The notes under the pieces are model-generated. The model was not told the origin of the DNA, did no database searches, and worked only from the letters and a program-made list of their open reading frames with translations. From positions 1 to 38,161 of the forward strand of contig JACFOH010000006.1 in the NCBI GenBank assembly GCA_019454405.1: 38,161 bases of DNA. The letters are read 5' to 3'. This DNA is from Promineifilum sp. (lineage in GTDB: Bacteria > Chloroflexota > Anaerolineae > Promineifilales > Promineifilaceae). Below are positions 5,850 to 19,893 of this stretch, piece after piece; within the stretch, counting starts at the first letter, position 1; each line of letters opens with the position of its first letter. Position numbers and translations under genes: made by a program.

Positions 5850-7208
5850 ATGAGTGAGAAAGATAAAAAGATAGAGTCGGACCCGATCGCCTATCGTTGT
5901 CCACGGTGCGACAGCATCGTACCCGAAGGGGCTGAGGGATGCGTCATGTGCGGGCTGCCTCGCGATGACATCCGGCCTGAACAGCAATCCGCCGGGGCTG
6001 CTGTCCTCCCTGCTGAAGATTCCGTGCAAGTCGGAGCCACGCAATCACAAGCTGTTGCCCCTGTTCCTATTGAGGAGCGGCAATCGTATGAAGAAAACCA
6101 TTTCCCGGCCGTTTTTGAGAGTCGTGTGCAAGAGAGCCGTTCGTCGATCGTTTTCTGGATCGTGGCCGCCCTGGTCGTAGCCGGTCTTGTCACTGGCTGG
6201 TCAGCGCTTCGCGATCAAGGCTCGGTAGTCATGGCTGCATTTATCCCCACAATGACACTGCTCCCTCCCACGACGACCAACACGCCAACGTGGACGCCAT
6301 TACCAACCGAAACCGCACCGCCGACGGAGACCCCGCCCCCGACGAACACACCGGAGCCGACCGCTACTCCCCGTGATCCACGCTATCATACGGTGTCTGC
6401 AGGAGAAACATTGTTCGGCCTGTCGCTTCTTTACCGTATCTCGGCTGAATCTATTGCACAAGCTAACGGATTTGATATGAGCGCCCCCATACAATCCGGA
6501 CAGAACCTTACCATTCCCTGGCCGACGGCAACTCCGCCGCTGGAATCTATGCTAATCGAGATCAACGGCGAGCCCGTCCTGGCTGATGCTACCCAGTGCG
6601 AGATCATTACCATTCAATCGGGCGATTCCGCTTATGGTATCTCGGCGTTGAAGGGCGTCCCTCTCGAGGCTATTATCGCTGTGAATCGCCAAACCCAGGA
6701 ATCGATTCAGCTGCTTCAACCGGGCGATACCCTGTGTATTCCTAAGCTGCTATACGGTGACACCATTCCACCGACGGCTGGTCCCTCACCAACGCCATCG
6801 CTTACGCCACCACCTGCCGGCCCGTCCCTGCTTTATCCGGTCGAGGGTGCTGTTATTGCTGTGCTCGATACACCGATCGTCTTCCAGTGGACGGCCGTGA
6901 AGGATCTTGACGAGGGTGAATGGTATATGGTGGAATTGCGTGACGCTGGCGAGCGTGATAGTTTGCCGAAACGCGGTTTTACGCGCGATCCATCTTTTCG
7001 CCTGCCGGTTGAGTGGCGGCCACAGATCGATGAGTTACGGCGTATGCAGTGGACGGTGAGTATCGTTCAAGTGACCGGCCGGCGTAGTGACGGCGGATTC
7101 ATCTATACATTCGGTGGCCAACCTAGTCAGTCAGCCACGTTCATGTGGCAGGGCGCGATCCCCACGGCCACGCCTACCCCGACGGCGACTCCCACTGTTG
7201 AACCTTAA
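5850..7208 (+). CDS. Zinc-ribbon, membrane-anchored protein with two LysM domains
   Basis: A 452-residue protein, the only gene on the plus strand. In order: a cytoplasmic zinc ribbon (C17-x2-C20, C31-x2-C34), one transmembrane helix (about 98-118), a Thr/Pro-rich linker (about 138-175), LysM 1 (about 178-225, beginning [14 protein letters not shown]), LysM 2 (about 250-298, with [11 protein letters not shown]), a second Pro/Thr linker, a beta-rich Ig-like segment (LYPVEGAVI onward) and a TPTATPT tail. LysM domains bind peptidoglycan or related glycans, so the C-terminal part is expected outside the membrane. The zinc ribbon inside suggests a link between envelope and a cytoplasmic partner (inference). 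An in-frame TTG at 5844 is an alternative start. The stop codon overlaps that of leuB on the other strand. Confidence 0.85.
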
Positions 7209-8290
7209 GCTGGAGACGATAGAACCTGAGCGACTCGTTCGCTCATCTCAATCGTCCCGATGAACGACTCTCCGGCCCTGGCGATGTCGGCCGTTCGCGC
7301 TCCATCTGCCAGTACCTGGGCCACCGCTGATTCAATAGCTATCGCTTCCTCTTCTAACCCCAGGCTTGAACGTAACATCATCGCTGTGCTCAAGATAGTC
7401 GCCAGTGGGTTGGCAATATCTTGGCCGGCGATATCCGGCGCGCTGCCGTGGATAGGTTCATATAGCCCGGGGCGGCCGGACTCGCCCAACGAAGCTGATG
7501 GTAGCATCCCCATTGAGCCGGCGATCATTGACGCTTCGTCAGACAGGATATCGCCAAACATGTTTTCGGTCACGATGACATCGAAATCAGCCGGCCGGTT
7601 TATCAAGTACATTGCGCAAGCGTCGACCAGAATATCTTCATGTTCCACGTCGGGATATTCGGCCGCTATTTCGTGTGTTACTTCGCGCCATAATCGTGAT
7701 GATGCCAGAACGTTGGCCTTATCCACTGAGGTCACTTTGCGGCGGCGACCGCGCGCCAGTTCGAATGCCAGGCGAACCACCCGCCGAATCTCACTCTCTC
7801 TATAGCGCATCGTATCGACGGCCGCCCGTTCGCCATCGATTGTCTCCTGACCTTGCGGGACACCAAAATACAGCCCCCCGGTCAATTCACGAATGATAAG
7901 CAGATCGACGCCCCGTACCCGTTCAGGTCGTAGTGGACTGGCTTCTATCAGCGCATCCAGTACGACCACCGGCCGTAAATTCGCAAAAACGCCCATCGCT
8001 TGCCGCATCTTTAATAGACCTTGCTCGGGCCGCACTGGTGCCTTGGGGTCACTCCACTTCGGGCCACCAACGGCTCCCAATAAGGCGGCATCGCTACTGA
8101 GGCATAAGCCGAGGGTTTCTTCGGGTAGCGCCTCGCCTGTGGCGTCGATGGCACAGCCGCCGATCATCCCTTCGCGATAACTAAATACATGTCCAAATCG
8201 GGCCGCAATCGCGTCCAGCACGCGCCGCGCCCCGCCCACAACCTCCGGGCCGATCCCGTCTCCGGGTAATAATGCAATTGTATAATTCAT
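7205..8290 (-). CDS. leuB: 3-isopropylmalate dehydrogenase
   Basis: Oxidatively decarboxylates 3-isopropylmalate to 2-oxoisocaproate with NAD+ in leucine synthesis; in a citramalate route the same enzyme handles 3-methylmalate. The 361-residue protein starts [11 protein letters not shown], contains the substrate arginine region [14 protein letters not shown], the metal-binding [10 protein letters not shown] and the NAD-site [15 protein letters not shown]. Length is normal. GAGAGG lies four bases before the ATG. It is the last gene of the branched-chain operon, 74 bases after the YbaK-like gene. Its TAA and the TAA of the convergent LysM gene overlap in the palindrome TTAA, leaving no room for a terminator between them. 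Confidence 0.96.
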
Positions 8291-8364
8291 GGGCCTCTCA
8301 ATGGATAACCGATTACGGTAAGGGCTAATAAATTATCATCCTGTCTACTTGCAGGGATTTGGTT

Positions 8365-8868
8365 TTACGTGCACTCGAGTTCTACTTTGAGGTTAGCTAG
8401 TTTGCCATTGGCTGCGCGGACAAGATCGTCAGGGCGAATGGAGAAGACAGTATTAGGTGTGCCTGCAGCTGCCCATATGACGTCATACAGCGCCAGGTCA
8501 CGGTCGATGTAGAGCGGCATTGGTGTCGTGTGCCCGAAAGGCGGCACGCCGCCGATGGCGTAACCTGTAGCCGCGCGGACGGTATCGGCGTCAGCGCGCT
8601 CAACTTGTTTCCGGCCCACTTCAAAAAGAGATGCCAACTTTCGTGTGTCGAGTTGATTCGCTCCCGAAACTAGCGTCATGACGGGGTCGCCTTTCACCGT
8701 GAAGACGAGACTCTTGACGATTTGGCCAACTTTGCAGCCGATGGCCGCCGCAGCTTCTTCGGCCGTCCGGGTCGAATGATCAAAGATGATGATGTTGATT
8801 GGCAAGCCCAGCGCTGCGGCTGCGTCCGCGAAGCGTTGCGCCGATGAAGGTAATTGTTTCTCGGTCAT
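8365..8868 (-). CDS. YbaK/EbsC-family aminoacyl-tRNA deacylase
   Basis: A 167-residue stand-alone editing-domain protein of the YbaK/ProX superfamily. These proteins hydrolyse mischarged tRNA (YbaK: Cys-tRNAPro; ProX: Ala-tRNAPro). The conserved lysine sits in IVKSLVF (Lys52), followed by MTLVSGANQLD (69-79) and the glycine-rich GGVPPFGH around 112-119. The exact misacylated substrate cannot be deduced. Placement inside a branched-chain amino acid operon, between cimA (39 bases upstream) and leuB, is unusual and could point to editing of a pathway by-product (speculative). No good ribosome binding site is visible before the ATG. Confidence 0.88.
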   Translation of the reverse strand: MTEKQLPSSAQRFADAAAALGLPINIIIFDHSTRTAEEAAAAIGCKVGQIVKSLVFTVKGDPVMTLVSGANQLDTRKLASLFEVGRKQVERADADTVRAATGYAIGGVPPFGHTTPMPLYIDRDLALYDVIWAAAGTPNTVFSIRPDDLVRAANGKLANLKVELECT

Positions 8869-8907
8869 AGGTCAATAATAGTTAAAGATGGGCGATCAGG
8901 CACGGTA

Positions 8908-10461
8908 TTATCGAATCAAGGCGTATTCCATGCTGTCGGATAGGGCGCGCCAACTGGCATCGATAATGTTGGGGCTGGCGCCGACTGTGCTCCATCGATG
9001 CATCCCTTGTCGGGTCTCAATGAGTACCCGTGTGGTAGCCGCCGTATTATTCTCTCCGTCGAGAATACGGACCTTGTAGTCAGCCAGCCTGACCCCGCTG
9101 ATTTGCGGGAACACCCCCGACAGTGCTTGCCGCAGAGCTGCGTCCAGGGCATTCACAGGCCCATTGCCCTCTGCCACCGTATGCATAATCTTTGGCCCGA
9201 CGCGTACCTTGACCGTCGCCTCGACGATAGGACCACGGCCGCGTCGCCGCTGCACCATCACCGAATAGTCCATCATTTCGAACGGGGGCACATAGGCGGG
9301 GTGCGTGCGTCGTAGCATCAGTTCTACCGACGCTTCCGCTCCCTCGAATGTGAAACCTTGCGCTTCCAGTTGCTTGATTTGGTCCAGTACTTTGGGAACG
9401 TCCAGGCTCTCTGGATTCAGATTGAACTGCTTGATCTTGTCGATCAGGTTGCCACGGCCTGAAAGCTCCGAGACAACGGAGCGCTGCCGGTTGCCTATTG
9501 TCTCCGGATCGATGTGTTGGTAACTGGCGGGGTGTTTCAACATGGCCGCCACATGGATACCGCCCTTGTGGGCGAAGGCGCTGGCCCCCACATAGGGGAG
9601 ATGGTCGTCGTGCGTCAGGTTGGCTAATTCGGCTATATAGCGCGATAGCTCGGTCAATCCCAATAGGCGTTCAGGCGACACGCAATCGTAGCCCATCTTA
9701 AGTTGCAGGTCGGGAATGATAGTGCATAAGTTGGCGTTAGCCACGCGCTCGCCATAGCCGTTCACTGTCCCCTGTACTTGTACAGCTCCGGCTCGTATGG
9801 CTGCCAGCGAGTTGGCTACACCACAGCCCCCATCGTCATGGGTGTGGATGCCTACGGGCGTGCTGCCCAAGCGTTGGACTACGCGCGTCACGATCTCTTC
9901 TACTTCCCAAGGGAGCGAACCGCCGTTTGTGTCGCAAATGACCACGCAATCAGCTCCACCTCGTGCTGCTGCCTCTACGGTGGCCAGTGCGTACTCGGCG
10001 TTGGCCTTATAGCCATCACAGAAATGCTCAGCGTCGTAGATAACTTCCTTGCCCTGGCTCTTGCAATAGGCGACGCTCTCCTCAATCATCGCCAGATTTT
10101 CTTCGGCCGTCGTCTCCAATACGTCTATGACGTGCAATTCCCAACTCTTGCCGACTACTGTCACTACCGGGGTTTCGGCCGAGAGCAATGCCTGAATGTT
10201 GGCGTCGTCAGCCGGGCGAATATTCTTGCGTCGTGTGCTGCCAAAGGCCGCCAACTTGGCATGTGACAGGCCCAGCGAGGGCGCGCGCCGGAAAAACTCG
10301 ACATCTTTTGGGTTTGAGCCGGGCCAGCCGCCTTCGATGTAATCCATCCCGAAGGTATCCAGGCGTGCCGCGATCTTTAGCTTGTCATCTAGCGAGAGCG
10401 ATATACCTTCCCGTTGCGTGCCATCGCGTAAGGTCGTGTCGTATAAATATATTTTTGTCAT
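8908..10461 (-). CDS. cimA: (R)-citramalate synthase
   Basis: Condenses pyruvate and acetyl-CoA to citramalate, the threonine-independent entry to isoleucine. The 517-residue protein has the DRE-TIM barrel start LYDTTLRDGTQREG (Arg12, Asp13), the metal site HTHDD, NGYGERVANANLC instead of the LeuA form, and a C-terminal LeuA-type regulatory dimer domain (about 390-517). Features such as FGMDYIEGGWPGSNPKD mark the CimA/TIGR00977-like group, not isopropylmalate synthase. The ATG overlaps the leuD stop as ATGA, so it is translationally coupled. The C-terminal domain implies feedback control by isoleucine in related enzymes. The window does contain thrB, but no threonine deaminase. Confidence 0.92.
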   Translation of the reverse strand: MTKIYLYDTTLRDGTQREGISLSLDDKLKIAARLDTFGMDYIEGGWPGSNPKDVEFFRRAPSLGLSHAKLAAFGSTRRKNIRPADDANIQALLSAETPVVTVVGKSWELHVIDVLETTAEENLAMIEESVAYCKSQGKEVIYDAEHFCDGYKANAEYALATVEAAARGGADCVVICDTNGGSLPWEVEEIVTRVVQRLGSTPVGIHTHDDGGCGVANSLAAIRAGAVQVQGTVNGYGERVANANLCTIIPDLQLKMGYDCVSPERLLGLTELSRYIAELANLTHDDHLPYVGASAFAHKGGIHVAAMLKHPASYQHIDPETIGNRQRSVVSELSGRGNLIDKIKQFNLNPESLDVPKVLDQIKQLEAQGFTFEGAEASVELMLRRTHPAYVPPFEMMDYSVMVQRRRGRGPIVEATVKVRVGPKIMHTVAEGNGPVNALDAALRQALSGVFPQISGVRLADYKVRILDGENNTAATTRVLIETRQGMHRWSTVGASPNIIDASWRALSDSMEYALIR

Positions 10462-11078
10462 GTCAGAGGATATGCCTCGGTATTGATCCGTGCCGGGTGA
10501 CTGCGCTCGTAGCCTTCAAGCTCCGATTCGTGTTTCAGGAGGTAGCCCATCTGATCAAGCCCTTCCATCATACAGATTTTATTGAAGGTGTCGATTGGGA
10601 AACGCGCTCGGCGACCATCTGGTAGCAGAAGTGATTGTGTGTCCATGTCGATCTTCAGCTCCATCTCGGGGTCTTCATTGACCAGACTGAGGAGCTGCTT
10701 ATGCGTTTCACTGTCGACGACTAGCGGCAGGAGTCCGTTTTTTAGAGCGTTGTTGCGGAAGATATCGGCGAATGATGTGCTGATGATGGCTCGAAAGCCG
10801 TAGTCGGTTAATGCCCACGGCGCATGTTCCCGGCTCGATCCACAGCCGAAATTGTCGCCCGCCAGCAGAATCCGAACGCCGTCGTTTTCGGGTCGGTTAA
10901 GCGGGAAATCTGGATTGGGATCCCCTTCATCATTATATCGCCAATCGGCAAACAGGTTCTGGCCAAGGCCGGCTTTGCTAATTGTTTTCAGAAAACGCGC
11001 CGGAATGATCTGATCCGTGTCGATATTATCGACGGGGATAGCGACCACCCTCGCGGTCAAAGTTGTGAATGGTTCCAT
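10458..11078 (-). CDS. leuD: Isopropylmalate isomerase small subunit
   Basis: Small subunit of the LeuCD hydro-lyase that interconverts 2- and 3-isopropylmalate (and citramalate/methylmalate). The 206 residues contain the swivel-domain signature DTDQIIPARFL (20-30) and FGCGSSREHAPWAL (77-90). Its length matches bacterial LeuD of the approximately 200-residue type. An AGGAC ribosome binding site lies upstream, 32 bases after leuC, and the stop overlaps the cimA start. It works only as a complex with LeuC. Confidence 0.95.
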   Translation of the reverse strand: MEPFTTLTARVVAIPVDNIDTDQIIPARFLKTISKAGLGQNLFADWRYNDEGDPNPDFPLNRPENDGVRILLAGDNFGCGSSREHAPWALTDYGFRAIISTSFADIFRNNALKNGLLPLVVDSETHKQLLSLVNEDPEMELKIDMDTQSLLLPDGRRARFPIDTFNKICMMEGLDQMGYLLKHESELEGYERSHPARINTEAYPLT

Positions 11079-11110
11079 AATTACGTCCTGCGGTCGGTTA
11101 CTATCGTCGC

Positions 11111-12535
11111 TCAGGCGATTTGCCCGACGAATTCTCGAACGTCGGTGATTTCACCCGTCACGGCTGCGGCCACGGCCGTCAGCGGACTGGCCAGGAATGT
11201 GCGGCCGCCTTTGCCTTGCCGTCCCTCGAAGTTACGATTGCTGGTACTCACTGCATATTGTCCGGGTTGAAGCTGGTCACCGTTCATTGCGATGCACATG
11301 CTGCAACCCGGCTCGCGCCATTCGGCGCCGGCAGATTTGAAAATACGATCGATGCCTTCGGCCTCGGCCTGCCGCTTCACCGCTTGTGAACCGGGCACGA
11401 CCATGACGCGTACGCCTTCTTTCACGGTATGCCCGTCCATGAGCTTTGCCGCTTGCCGCAGATCACTAATGCGCGAGTTAGTGCAGCTACCGATGAAAAC
11501 CACGTCCACCGGGTGCCCCAGTAACGGCCGTCCTGGTTCGATATCCATATATTCCAGAGAGCGTTGCAAAGTCATCCGTTGGGTCGGATCACTTATGACA
11601 GCCGGATCAGGCACGGAGGCCGAGATGGGGATTCCCATGCCGGGGTTAGTGCCAAAGGTGATCATCGGTTCCAGCAAAGAGGCATCGAGATCAACTGAAC
11701 GGTCGAAGACGGCTCCATCGTCGCTTGGTAATTGTCGCCACCGGGCTACGGCTTTGTCCCAATCCGCTCCCTGTGGCGCGAAAGGCTTACCCTTAATGTA
11801 AGCGAAAGTTGTTTCATCAGGTGCGATCAAACCCGCTCGCGCGCCACCTTCGATGCTCATGTTGCAGATGGTCATTCGTTCTTCCATCGACAACGCCCGA
11901 ATTGCGGACCCGCGATATTCGAACACGTGACCGGTCCCTCCGCCGACGCCGATCTTGGCCAACAATGCCAGGATGATGTCCTTCGCTGTCACCCCTGGTT
12001 TCAATTGTCCCTCGATATTGACAGCATAAGTTTTTGGTTTCACCTGGAGCAGGCACTGGCTGGCCAATACGTGCTCGACTTCGCTGGTGCCAATGCCAAA
12101 TGCCAGCGCCCCGAATGCGCCATGGGTAGCCGTGTGGCTATCACCACAGACGATAGTCATGCCCGGCTGCGTCAGCCCCAACTCCGGCCCGATGACATGG
12201 ACGATCCCGCGGTTCATGCTGTGCATTCCCAACAACTGGATGCCAAAATCACGTGCATTTGTCTCCATTTGGGCGATCTGGGCCGCCGCCATTAGATCTT
12301 GAATGGGGACGTCAAGTGGGGTAGTGGGTACGCTATGGTCGATGGTTGCCACAGTTTGCTGCGGCCGCCGCACCTTGAGACCACGCTGTCGTAACCCCGA
12401 GAAAGCTTGAGGAGAGGTGACTTCGTGAATCAGGTGTAGGTCAATGTAGAGTACTGCCGGACTGTCCGGCGCTTCGGATACGATATGATCGTCCCAGATT
12501 TTGTCTATGATTGTACGGGGTTTAGAAGAGGTCAT
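11111..12535 (-). CDS. leuC: Isopropylmalate isomerase large subunit
   Basis: Aconitase-family large subunit that carries the [4Fe-4S] cluster of LeuCD. The 474-residue protein shows [19 protein letters not shown], the cluster cysteines in IGSCTNSR and [11 protein letters not shown], and the usual N-terminus ending in [17 protein letters not shown]. Sharing of LeuCD between the leucine and citramalate branches is expected because both leuA and cimA flank it. The ribosome binding site before the ATG is weak. 83 bases separate it from leuA with no clear signal. Confidence 0.95.
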
Positions 12536-12618
12536 AAAAGATGTCCGTCAGTAAAGGGTTTCGTTACGCTGGTTGAATGCCGATCGCACCCAGTCGTGTG
12601 TTTGCCGATGTTCTCATC

Positions 12619-14262
12619 TCATACGGTTGCCGGGGTTGCCCGGCCAGGAGCCTTATCTCTTTCTGCGAGCATTTTATTTAAAGCGCTCAGATAGGCTCGT
12701 GCGCTAGCCACCACAATGTCAGTGCTGGCCCCGTGCCCGCTGTAAGTGCGATAGACCGGTTTGTCGGTTTGTGGATTGAGCGTGTATTCGGTTTCATCGC
12801 TGGGATGAATGCGGATCGTTGCCTCGGCGACGGCATCCAACCCTTCAGTTACAGCATTGATGCTAAATTCTGTCAGCCGGTTGGTGACGCCAATGATGCG
12901 ATTGATCGCTTGGTAGACTGCATCTACCGGGCCGCTGCCCAGCGCTGCGTCAGAGTAAGTCTCGCCGTCTGGCCCGGTCATCACCACACTGGCCGTTGGG
13001 ATGCTATGGTCGCCACATGACACCTGGATGTGATCGAGTTGCCAGATCACGGGAGGCTGGTAGATCTCATCAGCGATGATTGCCTCGATGTCGGCATCAG
13101 TAACGGCCTTTTTCTTATCAGCGATCGCCTTGAATCGCTTGAAAGCTGCGGCTACATCTTCATCATCCATGTTGTCGTAGCCCATCTCTTTCAGGCGGAC
13201 GCGGAACGCATGGCGGCCGGAATGCTTGCCGAGTACGAGCTTTGAGGTGTTTAACCCCACAGTCTCTGGCCGCATGATTTCATATGTCTGATGATTCTTT
13301 AGCATCCCGTCCTGATGAATGCCTGCTTCGTGGGCGAAGGCGTTGGCTCCGACGATCGCCTTATTGGCCTGGATGACCATGCCTGTGTACGTGCTTACCA
13401 TATGGCTGGTGCGCACGATCTGTGTCGTGTCGATATTGGTCTGTAGGTTGAAGTTCTGCGGCCGGGTAGTCAGGGCCATGACGACTTCTTCCAGGGCCGT
13501 ATTACCCGCCCGCTCGCCGATGCCGTTCAGGGTCACTTCAGCCTGTCGCGCGCCGGCCTTGATACCGGCCAGCGTATTGGCCGTCGCCAGCCCCAGGTCG
13601 TTGTGGCAATGCACTGACCAGATGACTCGATCTGAGCCGGGCGTGTTGGTGATGAGGTAATCGATGAGCCAACCGAATTCATCCGGCGTGGTATAACCAA
13701 CTGTATCGGGGATGTTCAGTGTAGTGGCCCCCGCTTTGATCGCCTCGCCCAATACCTGAACCAGGAATTCGGGATCGGATCGACCCGCATCTTCCGGAGA
13801 GAACTCTACGTCATCGCATAGTGATCGGGCATAGGACACGGCCCGAATAACCTGGTCTACACACTCTTCACGGTCGATCCGTAACTTGTGCTTCAGATGG
13901 ATGTCACTTGTCGCCAGAAAAGTATGAATGCGGTGACGCGGAGCGCTCCGGACCGCCTCATAGGCCCGACTGATGTCTGTCTCGTTAGCACGCGCCAATC
14001 CAGCGATGACCATTGGCTGTCCGTCTTTGCGCCCTTCGGTCAATGGCCCAACTTCCTCTGCGATCCGTCGTACCGCCTCAAAATCGCCGGGCGAAGCGAT
14101 TGGGAAACCCGCTTCGCAAATATCTACACCAAGCCGCGATAGTTGGCGTGCGATCTCCAGTTTTTCCTCGACGTTGAGCGTCGCGCCGGGCGATTGCTCC
14201 CCATCGCGCAGGGTGGTATCAAAAATCAGGACGGTATCGGGCGACGACATTGGATTACTCAT
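12619..14262 (-). CDS. leuA: 2-isopropylmalate synthase
   Basis: Condenses 2-oxoisovalerate with acetyl-CoA, the committed step of leucine synthesis. The 547-residue protein begins with [16 protein letters not shown], contains [13 protein letters not shown] (metal-binding His-x-His), [14 protein letters not shown], and a C-terminal LeuA dimer domain that normally binds leucine for feedback inhibition. I start at the ATG of 14262; a TTG one codon upstream lies only two bases from the AGGTG ribosome binding site, whereas the ATG has good spacing. It follows ilvC by 27 bases in the operon. Confidence 0.95.
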
Positions 14263-14289
14263 CAATTCACCTGCCTTGGAAATAACTAT

Positions 14290-15291
14290 CTAGACCACTT
14301 TGGGGTTTAGCCACGACATCATCTGTCGCAGGTCGCGCCCTACTTCTTCGACGCGAGTTTCGCGAGCTTCCGCTTGTTGTTTATTGAACCATGGCCGCCC
14401 CTGCGCGTTCTCGTCGATCCAGCCCTCAGCGAAGGCCCCGGATTGAATATCGGCCAGGAGCTGCTTCATAGCCTGTCGCGTTTGGTCAGTCACGATCTTG
14501 GGGCCGGCGGTGTAATCGCCATATTCGGCCGTGTCGCTGACGCTATAGCGCATATAATTCAGGCCTCCTTGATAGATCAAATCTACGATAAGCTTCAGCT
14601 CATGCAGACACTCGAAATAGGCGATCTCCGGCTGGTAGCCCGCGTCAACAAGCGTATTAAAGGCCGACTCGATCAGATGACTGACCCCGCCGCACAGGAT
14701 GGCTTGTTCACCGAACAGATCGGTCTCGGTTTCCTCGGTGAAAGTAGTGCGGATCACACCGGCGCGCGTGCAGCCTATTCCCTTGGCGTAGGCCAGCGCA
14801 ACCTCGGCCGCCTGGCCACTGGCGTCCTGGTGCACAGCCATCAGCCCCGGCGTTCCCATCCCTTCCACATACAATTCACGGACTCGGTGTCCGGGGGCCT
14901 TGGGGGCGACCATGCTGACGTCTACGCCGGCTGGAGGCACGATTTGCGCGTACCGGATATTAAACCCGTGGCTGAACATCAAGGTCTTACCCGGCGTGAG
15001 ATACGGTTGAATCCCCTCGCGGTAGATAGCGGCCTGCGAAGTGTCTGGAGCCAGGATCATGATGATATCCGCTTCATCGGACGCTTCGGCCGTCGTCTTC
15101 ACGGTCAAACCGTCCGCTTCAGCCTTGGCCCACGACTTGCTGCCAGGGTAAAGTCCAACGCGAACATCCATGCCTGAATCTCGCAAATTCAGTGCATGGG
15201 CATGTCCCTGACTGCCATAGCCGATGATCGCGATTTTCTTGCCGGCCAGCGCCGACAGATCTGCATCCTTGTCGTAAAAAACTGTAGCCAA
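14290..15291 (-). CDS. ilvC: Ketol-acid reductoisomerase
   Basis: Isomerises and reduces acetolactate or acetohydroxybutyrate in valine/leucine and isoleucine synthesis. The 333-residue class I (short) enzyme has the Rossmann motif [12 protein letters not shown] near 23-34. The cofactor loop [11 protein letters not shown] keeps the two serines commonly used to bind the NADPH 2'-phosphate. Metal/catalytic motifs are [13 protein letters not shown] and [12 protein letters not shown]. The start is TTG with GGGAG eight bases upstream; no in-frame ATG fits better. A perfect 12-bp hairpin lies just upstream, between ilvN and ilvC. Confidence 0.95.
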
Positions 15292-15322
15292 AATGAAATC
15301 TCCCTAATCTAAATATCTACAC

Positions 15323-15354
15323 GGAAACCGGGTTTTACTAATAACCCGGTTTCC
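15323..15354. repeat. 12-bp perfect hairpin between ilvN and ilvC
   Basis: GGAAACCGGGTT (15323-15334) and its exact complement (15343-15354) flank an 8-base loop. On the minus strand no U-run follows, so it is more likely an mRNA-processing or stabilising hairpin or a leaky terminator than a full stop. It would separate expression of ilvBN from ilvC and the downstream leu genes. Confidence 0.6.
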
Positions 15355-15366
15355 AGTTCCTATATG

Positions 15367-15942
15367 TTATGCTTGATGTCCATTCTTTTCGGTGACGACA
15401 GGTGCGACTTCCGTCCACTCCCTCGCCCCGTGGCGATGCCCGTGCGCTGATGATCCGCGGACCATTGCCACTCGTCCGGTGCGGACCATTTCCTCGATGC
15501 CGAAATTCTCCAGCAGCTTGATCAATGAATTCACCCGATCTTCGGGAGCAACTACCTGGATGATTAGCGAGCTTATATCCACGTCTACTACACTGGCGCG
15601 ATAGATGTCGACCAGTTGCATGATCTCGCCCCTCGTTTGGCTGGTAGCCGTTACCTTGATCAATGCCATCTCGCGCACCACAGATGGTTCATTGGTCACA
15701 TCGGCGATATGCACGACGTTGATCAATTTGTCCAGCTGCGTTGTCACTTGCCGCAGATCGCGCTCTGTGCCACGGGAGACGAAAGTCATCCGGCTGATGC
15801 CCGGCGTCTCGCTATGGCCCACATTCAGGCTTTCGATATTGAAATTGCGACGGCTGAACAAGCCAGTCACACGGTTTAGGACGCTGGGCTTGTCTTCCAG
15901 CCAGGCGATAATCGTATGTCGTCTGTATTCCGTATCGTACAT
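15367..15942 (-). CDS. ilvN: Acetolactate synthase small (regulatory) subunit
   Basis: Regulatory subunit that confers valine feedback on IlvB. The 191 residues start with an ACT domain (IIAWLEDKPSVLNRVTGLFSRRNFNIESL, described here by its ends, residues 11-39) and continue with the ALS-C domain around 85-160 (REMALIKV, then VVAPEDRV and GIEEMVRTGRVAM). The extra C-terminal tail with HGHRHGA is lineage-specific. It lies 11 bases after ilvB and is surely co-transcribed. The symbol ilvH would be equally valid; the sequence does not separate the two names. Confidence 0.94.
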   Translation of the reverse strand: MYDTEYRRHTIIAWLEDKPSVLNRVTGLFSRRNFNIESLNVGHSETPGISRMTFVSRGTERDLRQVTTQLDKLINVVHIADVTNEPSVVREMALIKVTATSQTRGEIMQLVDIYRASVVDVDISSLIIQVVAPEDRVNSLIKLLENFGIEEMVRTGRVAMVRGSSAHGHRHGAREWTEVAPVVTEKNGHQA

Positions 15943-15953
15943 TGTGGTGCTCC

Positions 15954-17660
15954 CTAATTTTCAACCGAACGCCCGCGTCGGATCATGTCGGCATTGCTTT
16001 TGCCCGGCGCGACCATCGGATAGACATTGGTAAATTCTTCTACCTGGAAATCAAGCAGGAACGGCCCATCGGTATTCTGGGCTTGGCGAAGAGCCTCAAA
16101 TACATCGTCCTTGCTGGTCACGGCGCGACCGGGTATCCCATAGGCCTCAGCTATCTTGACGAAGTCCGGATTGTATAGGGGCGTGCCCACATAGCGCTTG
16201 TTGTAGAAGACATCCTGCCACTGACGAACCATCCCCAAATAACCGTTATTGATAATGGCTATCTTGATTGGCAAACGTTCTTGCATGACTGTGGATAACT
16301 CCGGCATCGTCATCTGGAAACCGCCGTCGCCGGCGACAACCCAAATCTCTTCATCGGGTCGGCCCATTTGTGCGCCGATGGCCGCTGGGAGAGCATAACC
16401 CATCGTCCCTAACCCGCCGGAAGTCAGCAAGCTGCGAGGCTTGGTGTGGTTGAAATATTGCGCTTCCCACATCTGATGTTGCCCTACATCGGTGACGATC
16501 GTGGCATCTCCCTGGTTCGTCGCATACCATAGCTGTCGCATCACATAGGGGGCAACCAACTCGTCTGTTTCCTCAGTCAGGATGTCTCGCTCAACTGATT
16601 CACTGCGCCACTCGTTGATCTGTGCCAGCCATGCAGGATGCTCATTTGCCTCTACCTGTGGTAGCAGAGCGCGCAAGGTCAGCAGCGCGTCGGCTATCAC
16701 AGGCGTATCGATGGTCAGGTTCTTGCCCACTTCAGCGGGATCGAGATCGACATGGATGATCCGCGCTTTTGGAGCGAAGGTGCTGAAGGCGCCGGTTAGC
16801 CGGTCGTCGAGGCGGGCGCCAATAGCCAACATAACATCGCATTCTTGTAACGCGTAATTGCAATAAGCTTCGCCATGCATGCCACCCCAGCTGATCGATA
16901 GAGGGTGAGTGGCCGGGAATGTCCCGACACCGAGTAGGCTGGTAGCCACAGGGATATTGGCTTTTTCGGCCAGATGACGTAATTCCGCCTCCGCGTGCGC
17001 CATGGAGACGCCCTGGCCGGCGACGATTACCGGCCGTTGGGCTTCGTTGATAAGCCGGGCTACGCGCTGGATAACTTCTGCATCCGGAGCGAGGACATGC
17101 GGACGGTACCCCGGCAAGTAGACCTCGTTCGGATAGCTGAACTCCATCGTCATTTGCTGCACATCTTTGCAGATATCAACCAGGACAGGGCCTGGGCGAC
17201 CTGTTCGAGCGATATAAAAGGCTTCCTTTATAGCGGCAGGTAGGTCCCGGATATCTGTGATTAGATAATTGTGCTTCGTCACCGGCATGCTGATCGCCCG
17301 GATATCAGCCTCCTGAAAGCCGTCGCGGCCAAGGAGAGTGCGCGGGACTTGTCCGGTGATAGCTACGACAGGCGTCGAGTCCATATAGGCCGTCCCCAGG
17401 CCTGTGATCAGATTTGTCGCCCCTGGTCCGGATGTGGCGAGGCATACGCCGACCTTGCCCGTGGCCCGCGCATAACCATCTGCCATATGAGATGCCCCTT
17501 GCTCGTGTGTCACAAGTACATGGTGTACGGGATAATCATATTTGTAGAGATCGTCGTAAGTCGGGATGACGGCTCCGCCCGGCAGACCGAATACGACGTC
17601 GACCCCTTCATGGATCAGACTTTCCCATATGATTTGCCCACCTGTCTTCAACTCGCTCAT
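15954..17660 (-). CDS. ilvB: Acetolactate synthase large (catalytic) subunit
   Basis: Thiamine-diphosphate enzyme that makes acetolactate and acetohydroxybutyrate, the first common step of branched-chain synthesis. The 568-residue protein has the cofactor-activating Glu53 in [19 protein letters not shown], the FAD-binding central domain, and the ThDP motif [15 protein letters not shown] ending in NN. Length is typical. The ATG is preceded by AGGAG at good spacing, and 31 bases further upstream ends a transcription terminator of an attenuator. It is the first structural gene of the ilv-leu operon. Confidence 0.97.
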
Positions 17661-17691
17661 GCTTTCTCCTCAACTAATTATGGAATCAAAC

Positions 17692-17719
17692 AAAAAAACC
17701 GCCCTGTTGGGCGGTTTTT
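17692..17719 (-). terminator. Attenuator terminator in the ilvB leader
   Basis: On the minus strand the core stem CCGCCC/GGGCGG (17714-17709 with 17704-17699) closes an AACA loop and is followed by seven U residues (17698-17692), with A-U pairs extending the stem to 17719. It lies upstream of ilvB on the same transcript, so it must be an attenuator and not an operon end. Its 5' arm can alternatively pair with the leader's stop-codon region. Confidence 0.88.
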
Positions 17720-17768
17720 GTTAGCTCGATTCGTTTCCTTAATCTGTACTCCTCGTCCGTCACCCAAC
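17706..17768 (-). promoter_or_regulatory. Antiterminator pairing of the ilvB attenuator
   Basis: RNA from 17768-17757, GUUGGG-UGA-CGG, is complementary to CCG-CCCAAC (17714-17706), giving nine pairs with the leader stop codon UGA bulged out. This excludes the terminator. A competing stem pairs leader codons CCUCGUC (17823-17817) with GACGAGG (17757-17751). A ribosome stalled on the Leu/Val/Ile codons would break that stem and favour the antiterminator; a ribosome at the stop codon would cover it. Confidence 0.7.
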
Positions 17769-17843
17769 AGCTATTGTCTCCTTATCAATAATAAGGAGGA
17801 GGCTAAAGAGGACAATGACGAGGTCTTTCTGGTAAGGATTCAT
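17760..17843 (-). CDS. Branched-chain leader peptide of the ilv-leu operon
   Basis: A 27-residue open reading frame beginning MNPYQKD and continuing LVIVLFSLLLII, then DKETIAVG and a UGA stop. Ten of the twelve residues in the central run are Leu (5), Val (2) or Ile (3), exactly the products of the operon downstream. It ends 41 bases before the A-rich base of the attenuator terminator. This is the hallmark of ribosome-mediated attenuation, as in enteric ilvB and ilvG leaders. The ribosome binding site is weak (GTGGTAA). The frame is open further upstream to 17978, but the ATG at 17843 gives the sensible leader. An 8-bp hairpin CTCCTTAT/ATAAGGAG (17778-17798) lies within the coding sequence. 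Confidence 0.82.
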   Translation of the reverse strand: MNPYQKDLVIVLFSLLLIIDKETIAVG

Positions 17844-17873
17844 TAAATTACCACGGTCGGCGTGATGGTCGGA

Positions 17874-17915
17874 AGTATAGGGTCGTTCAATTGGAAGGGC
17901 TATATATAAATAGCC
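17874..17915 (-). promoter_or_regulatory. Tentative promoter and operator-like site of the ilv leader
   Basis: TATACT on the minus strand (plus 17874-17879) would start transcription about 24 bases before the leader ATG, but no good -35 hexamer sits 16-18 bases upstream. Just upstream lies the inverted repeat GGCTAT-N6-ATAGCC (17898-17915), a possible operator. Both are weak calls. Confidence 0.25.
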
Positions 17916-17976
17916 AAAAAGATCGACCTGATAATTGGTTATTATGCACAAATGGCCTGAGCTATGGGGGTAGACC

Positions 17977-18010
17977 AAAGAGGACGTGCCCGGTCGAGCA
18001 CGTCCTCTTT
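17977..18010. terminator. 13-bp hairpin, probable terminator of the PucR-family gene
   Basis: AAAGAGGACGTGC (17977-17989) and its exact complement (17998-18010) flank an 8-base loop. The A/U-rich outer end gives a short U-run at the end of the 3' arm in either direction. It lies 144 bases after the PucR-family stop and before the ilv leader, so it probably insulates the two units. Confidence 0.55.
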
Positions 18011-18153
18011 AGTTCCCACTATTTCCCACTGAACCGCGCACTCTAGCGCAAGCCTTAGAAGAGTATAGAGGATTCATATTCTGGAATATACGGACAATGT
18101 GGCAGATGAATAGGGGGTTGATTTGTTCAAATTTCACAATCAGGCAGCCTTTT
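18011..18153. other. Gap after the PucR-family gene
   Basis: A 143-base non-coding stretch. The only structure seen is a 14-base inverted repeat ATATTC-TG-GAATAT at 18076-18089, which might be an operator; no promoter could be assigned to it. Confidence 0.3.
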
Positions 18154-19893
18154 TCAGGCAACTGCGCTATCGCGCTCATCCTCAGGCCGTAATTGCCATA
18201 ACTTAAGCGCAAGATGCAACGCCAGCCGCATGTTAGTCTGGTCGAGGTGCAGGCCGGTTAATTCCTGGACCCGTTCCATTCGATAGAGCAGGGTGTTGCG
18301 GTGAACGAACAGCGATTCGGCTGTCTGACTGATATTGCCGTGATGGTCAAAATAAGCTTCGACAGTCCTCACTAAGCTTCCACGATTCTGGGCATCATAT
18401 TCAGTTAACGGCCGCATAATCTCGTCGGTGAACTTACGGACATTGTCGAGTCTCTCTAGATCGTAAAGCAAGCGATAGATACCCAGACTGCTAAACTCCA
18501 CAAATTGGTTGGTCAGGTTCAACCTTTCACCCAGTTCCATGGCTTGTAATGCTTCATCATACACTGTCGGCCACTCGGTAAGCGTCATGGCGGGGCCGCT
18601 GATGCCGCCGAGCAATGTCGCGTCGGGGAATTCCATCTCGGCTTGCTCACGAATGCGGCGGCCAAGCTGGTGTGCGCTGTCCATATCTTCGTCATTTTTC
18701 AATGCCTGAAAGATAACTAGGTGCCGATTACCGTAAATATGTACCAGGGCTGGACGGGGGTGATTCGACAGCACCCAATGGACTAGCGTCTCTAGCCTTC
18801 GCAGGCTTGGGCTAGCCGAGCCTAGCCATCCAACTACCATGACGGCATGTGGCTCTCGTGTATGGTGATCCAGTCGCCCCTCAAGGCGCTCGATCTCTCT
18901 TCTGGATAAGGAGCCGGCGAGGAGGCCTTCCAGGAAATCGCCGCGTAGCGATTTTTTGGCCTCATTGACTGCCTTGGTTTTGGCCATTTCCAGCGCACAG
19001 GCTGCTGCTCCATGTTCGACTGCCAGGCTGTCGAACATATCCAACTTGTCCGCTGGACCGATGACGGACAGATAACCTCGCGCTCGATCGCCAGAAATAA
19101 TGGGGCTTAATAATCGGCCGATCGGGGTGGGAGAATCTTCGGGCGTGAGAAGTTGTTGCCAATAACTTTGGCGTGCTTTAGCAGCCGCCTTTCGGTTACG
19201 TAGTACAGGAGGTAATGCGTCTCGCTGTTCCAATGCCTTGATGATCGCATCACGATCTACGGCCATATTATTGGGCCAGCTTGCTGCCTGGATTTCCATC
19301 CGTTTGTCCTGTACGACGACGGCGTTCCCGGTGAGTTTGCTGATCACCTCCGTCATCGCACCCAGCCCCTTGCCCTCACGAGACATGGCTGAAAGTTGAC
19401 GATAGAGTTGAATCGCGCGATCGCTGGTGGCCGCCTGGCGATCAAGGAGTAATGACGCGACAGATTGGTGAATCTCTCTGATGGAAGCCGAATCTGGAGC
19501 CACTAGCATGGTCAGATTGGATGCTTTAGCTAGTTGACTAAGCTCGTCGCCTGGTGAACCCATGCATAACAGTCCGGCTATCGGCAGGTTAGCCAGCGCA
19601 GTCAGGATGTCTGGTGTTGGAGACACTCCGCGATCGTTTATGAGGGAGTTCGGGATGATGACCAGGTCGTTTGGTTCTACCTGGCTTTCGATGTCGCTCC
19701 ATCCTGCCAGAATGGTCACCCAATTGACATTTCGCCGTGTGTCATCGCCATCGCTGATAAGCGTTGTGTTGAAAGGTAAGGCGAGACGCAAGATGTCGCC
19801 AATATTGACCTGGGTATGGGTATTGTTATCGTGGCTCATACTATCAATTCGGCCGGCGACTCTTGTGAGTTTGGGGAGCGTCGCTATGACCAA
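18154..19893 (-). CDS. PucR-family transcriptional regulator
   Basis: A 579-residue cytoplasmic regulator. An N-terminal PucR ligand-type domain begins near residue 30 (VNIGDILRLALPF). A GAF-like region lies around 180-300, and a CdaR GGDEF-like region around 330-470. The C-terminal PucR helix-turn-helix is clear at about 510-570: GNISQTAESLFVHRNTLLYRMERV, i.e. the HRNT(L)xYR signature. The family controls purine or amino-acid catabolism in other bacteria, with effectors mostly unknown. Its stop faces the ilv leader, so it could act on that operon, but nothing in the sequence proves it. The start is uncertain: 19893 is a TTG, while ATG at 19839 is also in frame; neither has a good ribosome binding site. 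Confidence 0.88.
   Translation of the reverse strand: MVIATLPKLTRVAGRIDSMSHDNNTHTQVNIGDILRLALPFNTTLISDGDDTRRNVNWVTILAGWSDIESQVEPNDLVIIPNSLINDRGVSPTPDILTALANLPIAGLLCMGSPGDELSQLAKASNLTMLVAPDSASIREIHQSVASLLLDRQAATSDRAIQLYRQLSAMSREGKGLGAMTEVISKLTGNAVVVQDKRMEIQAASWPNNMAVDRDAIIKALEQRDALPPVLRNRKAAAKARQSYWQQLLTPEDSPTPIGRLLSPIISGDRARGYLSVIGPADKLDMFDSLAVEHGAAACALEMAKTKAVNEAKKSLRGDFLEGLLAGSLSRREIERLEGRLDHHTREPHAVMVVGWLGSASPSLRRLETLVHWVLSNHPRPALVHIYGNRHLVIFQALKNDEDMDSAHQLGRRIREQAEMEFPDATLLGGISGPAMTLTEWPTVYDEALQAMELGERLNLTNQFVEFSSLGIYRLLYDLERLDNVRKFTDEIMRPLTEYDAQNRGSLVRTVEAYFDHHGNISQTAESLFVHRNTLLYRMERVQELTGLHLDQTNMRLALHLALKLWQLRPEDERDSAVA

Follow-up and report, generated by a model that had tools for sequence, protein, structure and literature searches.

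A predicted ribosome-mediated transcription attenuator upstream of the ilv-leu-cimA gene cluster of Promineifilum sp. and its distribution in Chloroflexota

The conserved leader upstream of ilvB in Promineifilum sp. (contig JACFOH010000006.1; the window is the whole stretch of 38,161 nt that was analysed) is predicted, with a probability of about 0.9, to be a ribosome-mediated transcription attenuator of the ilvBN-ilvC-leuACD-cimA-leuB genes that likely senses charged Leu, Val and Ile tRNAs. The elements of an attenuator are all present on the minus strand, namely a leader ORF, alternative pairings and an intrinsic terminator, and the pairing arms co-evolve in related genomes. The term translational attenuation, applied to this region in an earlier sequence-only reading, is incorrect; the process meant is attenuation of transcription by a translating ribosome. 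The leader sits between a gene for a PucR-like regulator and ilvB, and the features in this region are as follows.

18154-19893, minus strand: PucR-like regulator gene, the upstream neighbour
17874..17879, minus strand: predicted -10 element TATACT, recognised by eye; implied start ~17867, ~24 nt 5' of the leader ATG
17760..17843, minus strand: leader ORF MNPYQKDLVIVLFSLLLIIDKETIAVG, ATG at 17843 and TGA at 17762-17760; 27 codons plus TGA, without a clear Shine-Dalgarno sequence
17802..17823, minus strand: segment 1, 5' arm of the protector stem P, codons 7-14; from the fold and the own-versus-swapped tests
17787..17822, minus strand: control codons 8-19 LVIVLFSLLLII, 10 Leu/Val/Ile in 12; codons CUC/CUU, AUU and GUC
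17778..17798, minus strand: hairpin H1 CUCCUUAUUAUUGAUAAGGAG in the late control codons; from the fold, possible pause hairpin
17751..17771, minus strand: segment 2, 3' arm of P; includes the stop codon (17762-17760) and, at 17770-17761, the 5' arm of the antiterminator, CUGUUGGGUG
17704..17714, minus strand: segment 3 CCGCCCAACAG, partner of segment 2 (antiterminator) or segment 4 (terminator)
17692..17719, minus strand: intrinsic terminator, 11-pair stem 17719-17694 with loop AACA; segment 4 is 17704-17694 and U7 is 17698-17692
17665..17671, minus strand: Shine-Dalgarno-like GAGGAGA of ilvB, from sequence
15954..17660, minus strand: ilvB, acetolactate synthase large subunit, first gene; TIGR00118, 732.7 bits, cut-off 538.35
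7205..15942, minus strand: ilvN, ilvC, leuA, leuC, leuD, cimA, a gene with a YbaK-like editing domain, and leuB; Pfam, and NCBIfam for ilvC, leuA, leuC, cimA and leuB

The nine genes of the ilv-leu-cimA cluster are all on the minus strand, with intergenic gaps of -4 to 83 nt. NCBIfam matches were considered at E ≤ 1e-80, and the identity of ilvN and leuD comes from Pfam only. The cluster had been read as covering the synthesis of all three branched-chain amino acids together with citramalate synthase. The assignment of cimA stands (TIGR00977, 728.3 bits, cut-off 450), but neither ilvD nor a branched-chain transaminase gene is among the nine genes.

The leader ORF has 27 codons, with ten Leu, Val or Ile codons in a run of twelve, as claimed before. 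It is the sole ORF with at least ten L, I or V in 12 codons among the 234 ATG ORFs of 20–60 codons in the window, and none of 5,873 ORFs from mononucleotide shuffles of the window (n = 20) reached that content. Altogether, 12 of the 27 residues are L, I or V, ten of them inside codons 8–19. The Leu and Ile codons of the leader (CUC/CUU and AUU) are minority codons of the neighbouring genes, ten of which have codon frequencies of 0.36 for CUG, 0.15 for CUC and 0.09 for CUU, and 0.69 for AUC and 0.21 for AUU. When the related leaders were grouped into 63 clusters linked at 80% identity, CUU and AUU were the top codons for Leu and Ile. This codon choice suggests that particular isoacceptors may be the sensors. 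A Shine-Dalgarno-like site precedes the leader ATG in only 16 of the 63 clusters; the leader of Corynebacterium reportedly also lacks a ribosome binding site, going by the title of a paper by Morbach from 2000.

The leader of the window folds stably. Stem P is predicted to consist of 18 pairs (17823-17802 with 17771-17751) and covers the antiterminator arm. The pairing CCUCGUC/GACGAGG recognised previously (17823-17817 with 17757-17751) is present but forms merely the outer seven pairs of this stem, and among relatives the pairing is conserved while that exact sequence is not. The antiterminator, formerly written as CUGUUGGG-UGA-CGG with CCGCCCAACAG, is likewise present and its arms co-evolve, but the additional CGG/CCG pairs are poorly retained: in the family alignment (A2) pairing amounts to 91% in the main helix but to only 56% in the three pairs that follow the stop codon. 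The antiterminator is better drawn as an uninterrupted helix of ten pairs, CUGUUGGGUG/CGCCCAACAG, in which the U and G of the stop codon take part. The CCGCCC/GGGCGG terminator with its U7 tract was confirmed, as a terminator scan of 17640-18160 found exactly this one hairpin (17719-17694; 0.4 expected) and its pairs covary. Hairpin H1, inside the control codons, was absent from the sequence-only reading and recurs in relatives; its local fold has a mean z of -2.5 and is below -2 in 42 of the 63 clusters.

On the proposed mechanism, RNA polymerase would start near 17867 and a ribosome would start on the leader. When branched-chain aminoacyl-tRNAs are short, the ribosome would stall on codons 8–19, opening P and leaving segment 2 free; once segment 3 emerges, segments 2 and 3 would pair as the antiterminator, and the polymerase would read into ilvB. 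When aminoacyl-tRNAs are plentiful, the ribosome would reach the UGA inside segment 2 and mask this segment, whereupon segment 3 would pair with segment 4 and the terminator would halt transcription. With no ribosome, P would occupy segment 2 and the terminator would form too. H1 probably pauses the polymerase until the ribosome arrives.

The nascent window RNA up to segment 3 was folded with a ribosome footprint of assumed size kept open. With the ribosome at Val9 or Ile18, the antiterminator CUGUUGGGUG/CGCCCAACAG forms in this constrained fold; with the ribosome at the UGA it does not, and without a ribosome P and H1 form and the antiterminator does not. When segment 4 is included, the terminator prevails at equilibrium for each of the ribosome states tested, and hence timing (kinetics) must decide readthrough. 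In attenuators generally, the outcome is decided by timing.

An antiterminator built on the leader's own stop codon, as had been proposed, is found in the window and its nearest relatives but is not general. Among the 63 clusters, the position of the stop codon relative to the first base of the antiterminator arm ranges from -6 to +43 nt (negative values being upstream), and stops located within the antiterminator characterise the own family and not the whole set. In 37 of the 63 clusters, the stop is 15–43 nt beyond the arm start, and masking at the stop cannot therefore be the whole story there.

A search for IlvB in 59 genomes (the own genome included) gave 30 loci, at 23 of which a leader and a terminator lie directly upstream of ilvB. 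The 23 extracted leaders come from the own genus and family and from two further families of the class; the remaining seven loci (L023, L024 and L027–L031) were left out, either because the match starts within the gene or because another gene precedes ilvB. The peptides diverge, with endings that are alike (for example, ...LIIDKDTITVG-stop and ...LIIVVKDPYTVG-stop). The arms change together, giving GCUGGG/CCCAGC in L021, CUGGGAGG/CCUCCCAG in L022, CCGUUUGG/CCAAACGG in L025 and ACGGGCG/CGCCCGU in L020. In L009, L014 and L022 the antiterminator arm is kept despite a different reading frame, which argues for its conservation as RNA. The comparison with relatives that had been suggested as a check thus revealed a conserved ORF and conserved pairings with compensatory changes, favouring an attenuator.

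RNAalifold recovered the terminator alone from the family alignment A1. The leader arms shift register, which accounts for this result, and pairing-energy swap tests were used for that reason. In these tests, the pairing of an arm with its own partner is compared with its pairing with partners taken from other places. In the own family (22 sequences), the energies for own and swapped partners were -17.0 and -13.9, respectively, for P and -18.0 and -15.9, respectively, for the antiterminator, with 0 of 20,000 permutations reaching the own value in either case.

The same relationships hold across all clusters. The antiterminator test was run on whole windows, as an arm chosen with its own partner would bias the result. 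For the 63 clusters, own partners gave -18.39 kcal/mol as compared with -14.21 kcal/mol (sd 0.32) for swapped partners (0 of 20,000 permutations), and for the 51 clusters outside the own family the values were -19.19 and -14.94, respectively (0 of 20,000); on average, 14% of foreign arms paired better than the own antiterminator arm. The protector test, in which the leader codons were paired with the region around the antiterminator arm, covered 57 of the 63 clusters, six being too short. Own partners gave -22.91 kcal/mol versus -17.41 kcal/mol (sd 0.44) for swapped ones (0 of 20,000), and in 56 of the 57 clusters the energy of P was better than the average for mononucleotide-shuffled arms. 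Individual protector sequences differ between clusters, and the pairing is kept.

Covariation in the alignments was assessed against 500 shuffles. For the terminator, both sides have changed in 4 of 9 pairs of alignment A2; four shuffles reached this count and none the covariation score. In alignment A3, changes on both sides were found in 6 of 9 pairs (50 such cells), and neither this count nor the score was reached by any shuffle; at least as many further types of pair were seen in 190 shuffles. For the antiterminator, 3 of 11 pairs in A2 had both sides changed; 13 shuffles reached this count and none the score. One position was identical across the three arms in 15 of 20 clusters, these 20 of the 63 being those that permitted the count.

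Two covariance models served for wider searches, R1 built from 21 sequences and R2 from 40 diverse members; the pairs of H1 were omitted from both, because the register of H1 varies. At E ≤ 0.01, R1 had matches in 128 of the 396 class genomes. A set of 112 places was assembled from 60 further R1 places taken by falling score (G217, at a contig end, and G333, with an opposite-strand overlap, were skipped), 20 more of lower score or outside the class, 29 of the 30 R1 loci (L047 is the place of L009 and was left out) and three tandem pairs, each contributing both copies. At 105 of the 112 places, a leader with seven or more L, I or V in 12 codons accompanies an antiterminator of -11 kcal/mol or lower (the others are L143, L144, L149, L150, L151, L153 and L157), where the L/I/V content is partly selected, since R1 holds about 34 nt of control codons. 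Gene adjacency is not so selected: a branched-chain gene lies within 1.5 kb downstream at 99 places, and at the other 13 none of the ten proteins searched was found. The nearest downstream gene is ilvB at 58 places, ilvD at 38, a LivK-type gene at two and cimA at one, with tandem copies counted twice and family identities checked on samples. L107 and L109 are among the few places with about 1 kb before the branched-chain gene.

A scan independent of the RNA model covered 78 of 80 ilvB-bearing contigs found by protein in named genomes, L197 and L198 being excluded for truncated genes. A leader (at least 8 of 12) followed by a terminator was found at 35 of 52 Chloroflexota loci, three of 26 other loci and none of 390 block shuffles. 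The scan misses some leaders, such as that of L188, apparently the same locus as L025, which shows one. The three loci outside Chloroflexota are L210, L224 and L200, all from Acidobacteria; L210 and L224 have a common leader ending, VLLRVLVLRSIRPPGGSGI.

At E ≤ 0.001, R2 matched 237 of the 396 class genomes and 150 of 222 genera, including genomes that supplied the model, and had no match in the remaining 159 genomes. At E ≤ 0.0001 it matched 71 of 400 genomes of the phylum, 32 of them outside the class, of which three (G556, G625 and G713) supplied model sequences. Another of the 32, G658 (L132), appears to be a fortuitous match to an ORF for a small membrane protein; a different L/I-rich ORF lies there between the matched site and an ilvB-like gene. 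Among 20 places inspected after the phylum search (19 outside the class), all have a leader-like ORF (7–12 of 12, the weakest at L257), and ilvB or ilvD follows within ~400 nt at 14. At L256 ilvB is 1.0 kb on, and L255 has only a weak match (22%), 1.1 kb away; L253, L254, L257 and L258 have no ilvB or ilvD match downstream. L240–L243 are presumably Chloroflexus aurantiacus J-10-fl, C. aggregans, Herpetosiphon aurantiacus and Roseiflexus sp. RS-1.

The window contains a single attenuator. Two attenuators in series, each with an L/I/V-rich leader and a terminator, were seen at L051, L056, L060, L061, L076, L085, L088 and L089, an observation made without a shuffle control. A rule that the first tandem leader is devoid of valine was considered and dropped, being true of L061 and L088 only. 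At L063 and L064, the same leader and terminator design precedes a putative transporter gene, that of L063 matching a high-affinity branched-chain amino acid ABC transporter binding protein (157.8 bits, below the cut-off of the model); thus, uptake as well as synthesis may be attenuated. At L090, the ORF downstream of an intact-looking attenuator resembles ilvD at its start but has a weak match to the model of the iron exporter MbfA, and the same genome has another attenuator copy before ilvD (L101).

A different terminator, AGCAGAAAAC...GTTTTCTGCT-T, was noticed by eye between the attenuator and ilvB in L009–L013, L015–L017 and L019. L034, L036, L037, L040, L043, L046 and L052 have it also, several of these being the same genomes as in the former set. 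It is often preceded by an ATG ORF poor in L, I and V and rich in Q, S and T (in L034, two L/I/V in 56 codons). This second terminator, found in several genera of the own family and absent from the window, is possibly part of another attenuator with different sensing.

Two further elements lie upstream of the leader. At 17965-18065 of the window (minus strand) there are TATACT, GGCTTGCGCTAGAGTGCGCGG, a repeat AGTGGGAAATAGTGGGA and a hairpin AAAGAGGACGTGC/GCACGTCCTCTTT, which are also found just upstream of the leader in relatives from the genus; this element may be a small RNA, a regulator site or a bidirectional terminator. The AGTGGGA repeat was considered as a genome-wide regulatory box and dropped, as one exact copy is present in the own genome and in each of five relatives from the genus, and none in two others. 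At ~17935-17955 (minus strand), upstream of the leader promoter, there is a recurring TTGTGCA-like inverted repeat, seen by eye also in L014, L018 (where it reads TTGTGCAATCTGCACAA) and L021. It is possibly an operator, and a gene for a PucR-type regulator adjoins.

The position of the promoter bears on the interpretation. A transcription start downstream of 17760, by which the leader would escape transcription, had been named as evidence against an attenuator. Judged by sequence, TATACT lies upstream of the leader, but a sigma-70 promoter scan of the region left this site (17879-17874) unflagged and gave a single match at 17815-17788, inside the leader and at chance level. By eye, members of the genus have TATACT at a similar distance upstream of the leader, and L242 and L243 have TTGACA/TATACT-type promoters followed by the leader ~30 nt on. 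In 27 of the 63 clusters, the 70 nt preceding the leader ATG contain a TATA-like element, as compared with 15% in dinucleotide shuffles.

The silence of the promoter scan would suit a constitutive terminator that ends an upstream small RNA or the PucR-like transcript, the leader ORF being incidental and the ilvB promoter located downstream. The PucR-like gene is on the same strand, and a terminator and a short ORF can arise by chance. This explanation is considered very unlikely in view of the co-evolution of the arms, the L/I/V-rich leaders and the adjacency of branched-chain genes in many families, and the 31 nt between the U-tract and the ilvB ATG offer little room for a promoter. Least probable is control of the leader by a protein or by a metabolite- or tRNA-binding RNA (riboswitch or T-box) in place of a translating ribosome. 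It would accord with the stable fold of the leader, and T-box motifs have been reported in Chloroflexi (PMC3766115). However, neither the window nor any of 20 related loci gave a match at gathering score to a family of Rfam 15, the T-box and such ilv leaders as Rfam 15 may contain included, and the in-frame run of L/I/V codons and the short stems recur while the peptides differ.

A functional leader that mainly senses one amino acid (leucine) or general translation, and not all three amino acids, is a more serious contender, though an unlikely one. Leu is the commonest residue of the leaders in the 63 clusters (380 of 2014, with 272 I and 270 V), and the leucine codons of the window leader are all the minority CUC/CUU. 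Set against this, Leu, Val and Ile all occur in the control run of the window, and the cluster serves all three pathways.

A broader view is put at even odds: leader-peptide attenuation may be ancestral for branched-chain amino acid synthesis in Chloroflexota. One RNA design with three co-changing arms would then control LivK-type uptake genes as well as ilvB, ilvD and cimA, in lineages ranging from Anaerolineae to Chloroflexus, Roseiflexus and Herpetosiphon, and would be doubled in series in several of them, so that there would be two amino-acid-gated terminators to pass. The attenuator set would extend the known range of ribosome-mediated attenuation to a deep-branching phylum in which many members are uncultured. 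For hundreds of genomes, it predicts the genes that answer to a lack of branched-chain amino acids. It would also provide a natural series of co-varying attenuators in which the stop position, the protector and tandem copies can be compared, including in the apparently cultured Chloroflexus and Herpetosiphon, and bears on the question whether such attenuators arose repeatedly or are old.

Genomes of Chloroflexus and Herpetosiphon existed by 2010. No description of a branched-chain amino acid attenuator in Chloroflexota was found in the literature searched; a survey of bacterial attenuation, Lopatovskaya 2010 (Mol Biol 44:128), may mention Chloroflexi. Amino acid operons under leader-peptide attenuation are known in Proteobacteria and Actinobacteria, and a 2010 survey states that none had been shown outside these phyla before its own case in Firmicutes (PMC2965389). 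Motifs with uORFs rich in branched-chain codons upstream of ilvB are described for Corynebacterium and Leptospira and as candidates in various phyla (PMC10272879). Hence, this kind of attenuator is already known, and its phylum-wide spread in Chloroflexota seems undescribed.

A permissive Rfam scan of 17640-18160 gave 25 matches, all below gathering score, among them Phe_leader (28.8 versus 55) and Leu_leader RF00512 (24.8 bits versus 50). Membership of these leader families was rejected, and the matches are read as reflecting a shared terminator form. The ilv and leu operons of enterobacteria are controlled by leader-peptide attenuators. Those of ilvGMEDA, ilvBN and leuABCD resemble the Chloroflexota set in the L/I/V-rich ORF, the protector, the antiterminator, the terminator and the pathway controlled. 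As compared with Leu_leader RF00512, the Chloroflexota set is marked by a CCGCCC/GGGCGG or CCTCCC/GGGAGG terminator core and by H1 in the control codons. The mgtCBR attenuators of Salmonella respond to signals other than branched-chain amino acids. As described in PMC3641672, mgtCBR has two leader ORFs on one transcript, as do the eight tandem loci, while the genes controlled differ. The ilvB-II motif/ilvBNC attenuator of Corynebacterium likewise combines a uORF of branched-chain codons upstream of ilvB with a terminator (P2) and attenuation, but according to PMC10272879 its uORF usually has 15–17 codons, versus a median of 30 for the leaders at the related Chloroflexota places. The ilvB-OMG motif (various phyla) and the Leptospira ilvB motif also have candidate uORFs with branched-chain codons upstream of ilvB; unlike the Chloroflexota leaders, these are also rich in threonine codons (PMC10272879).
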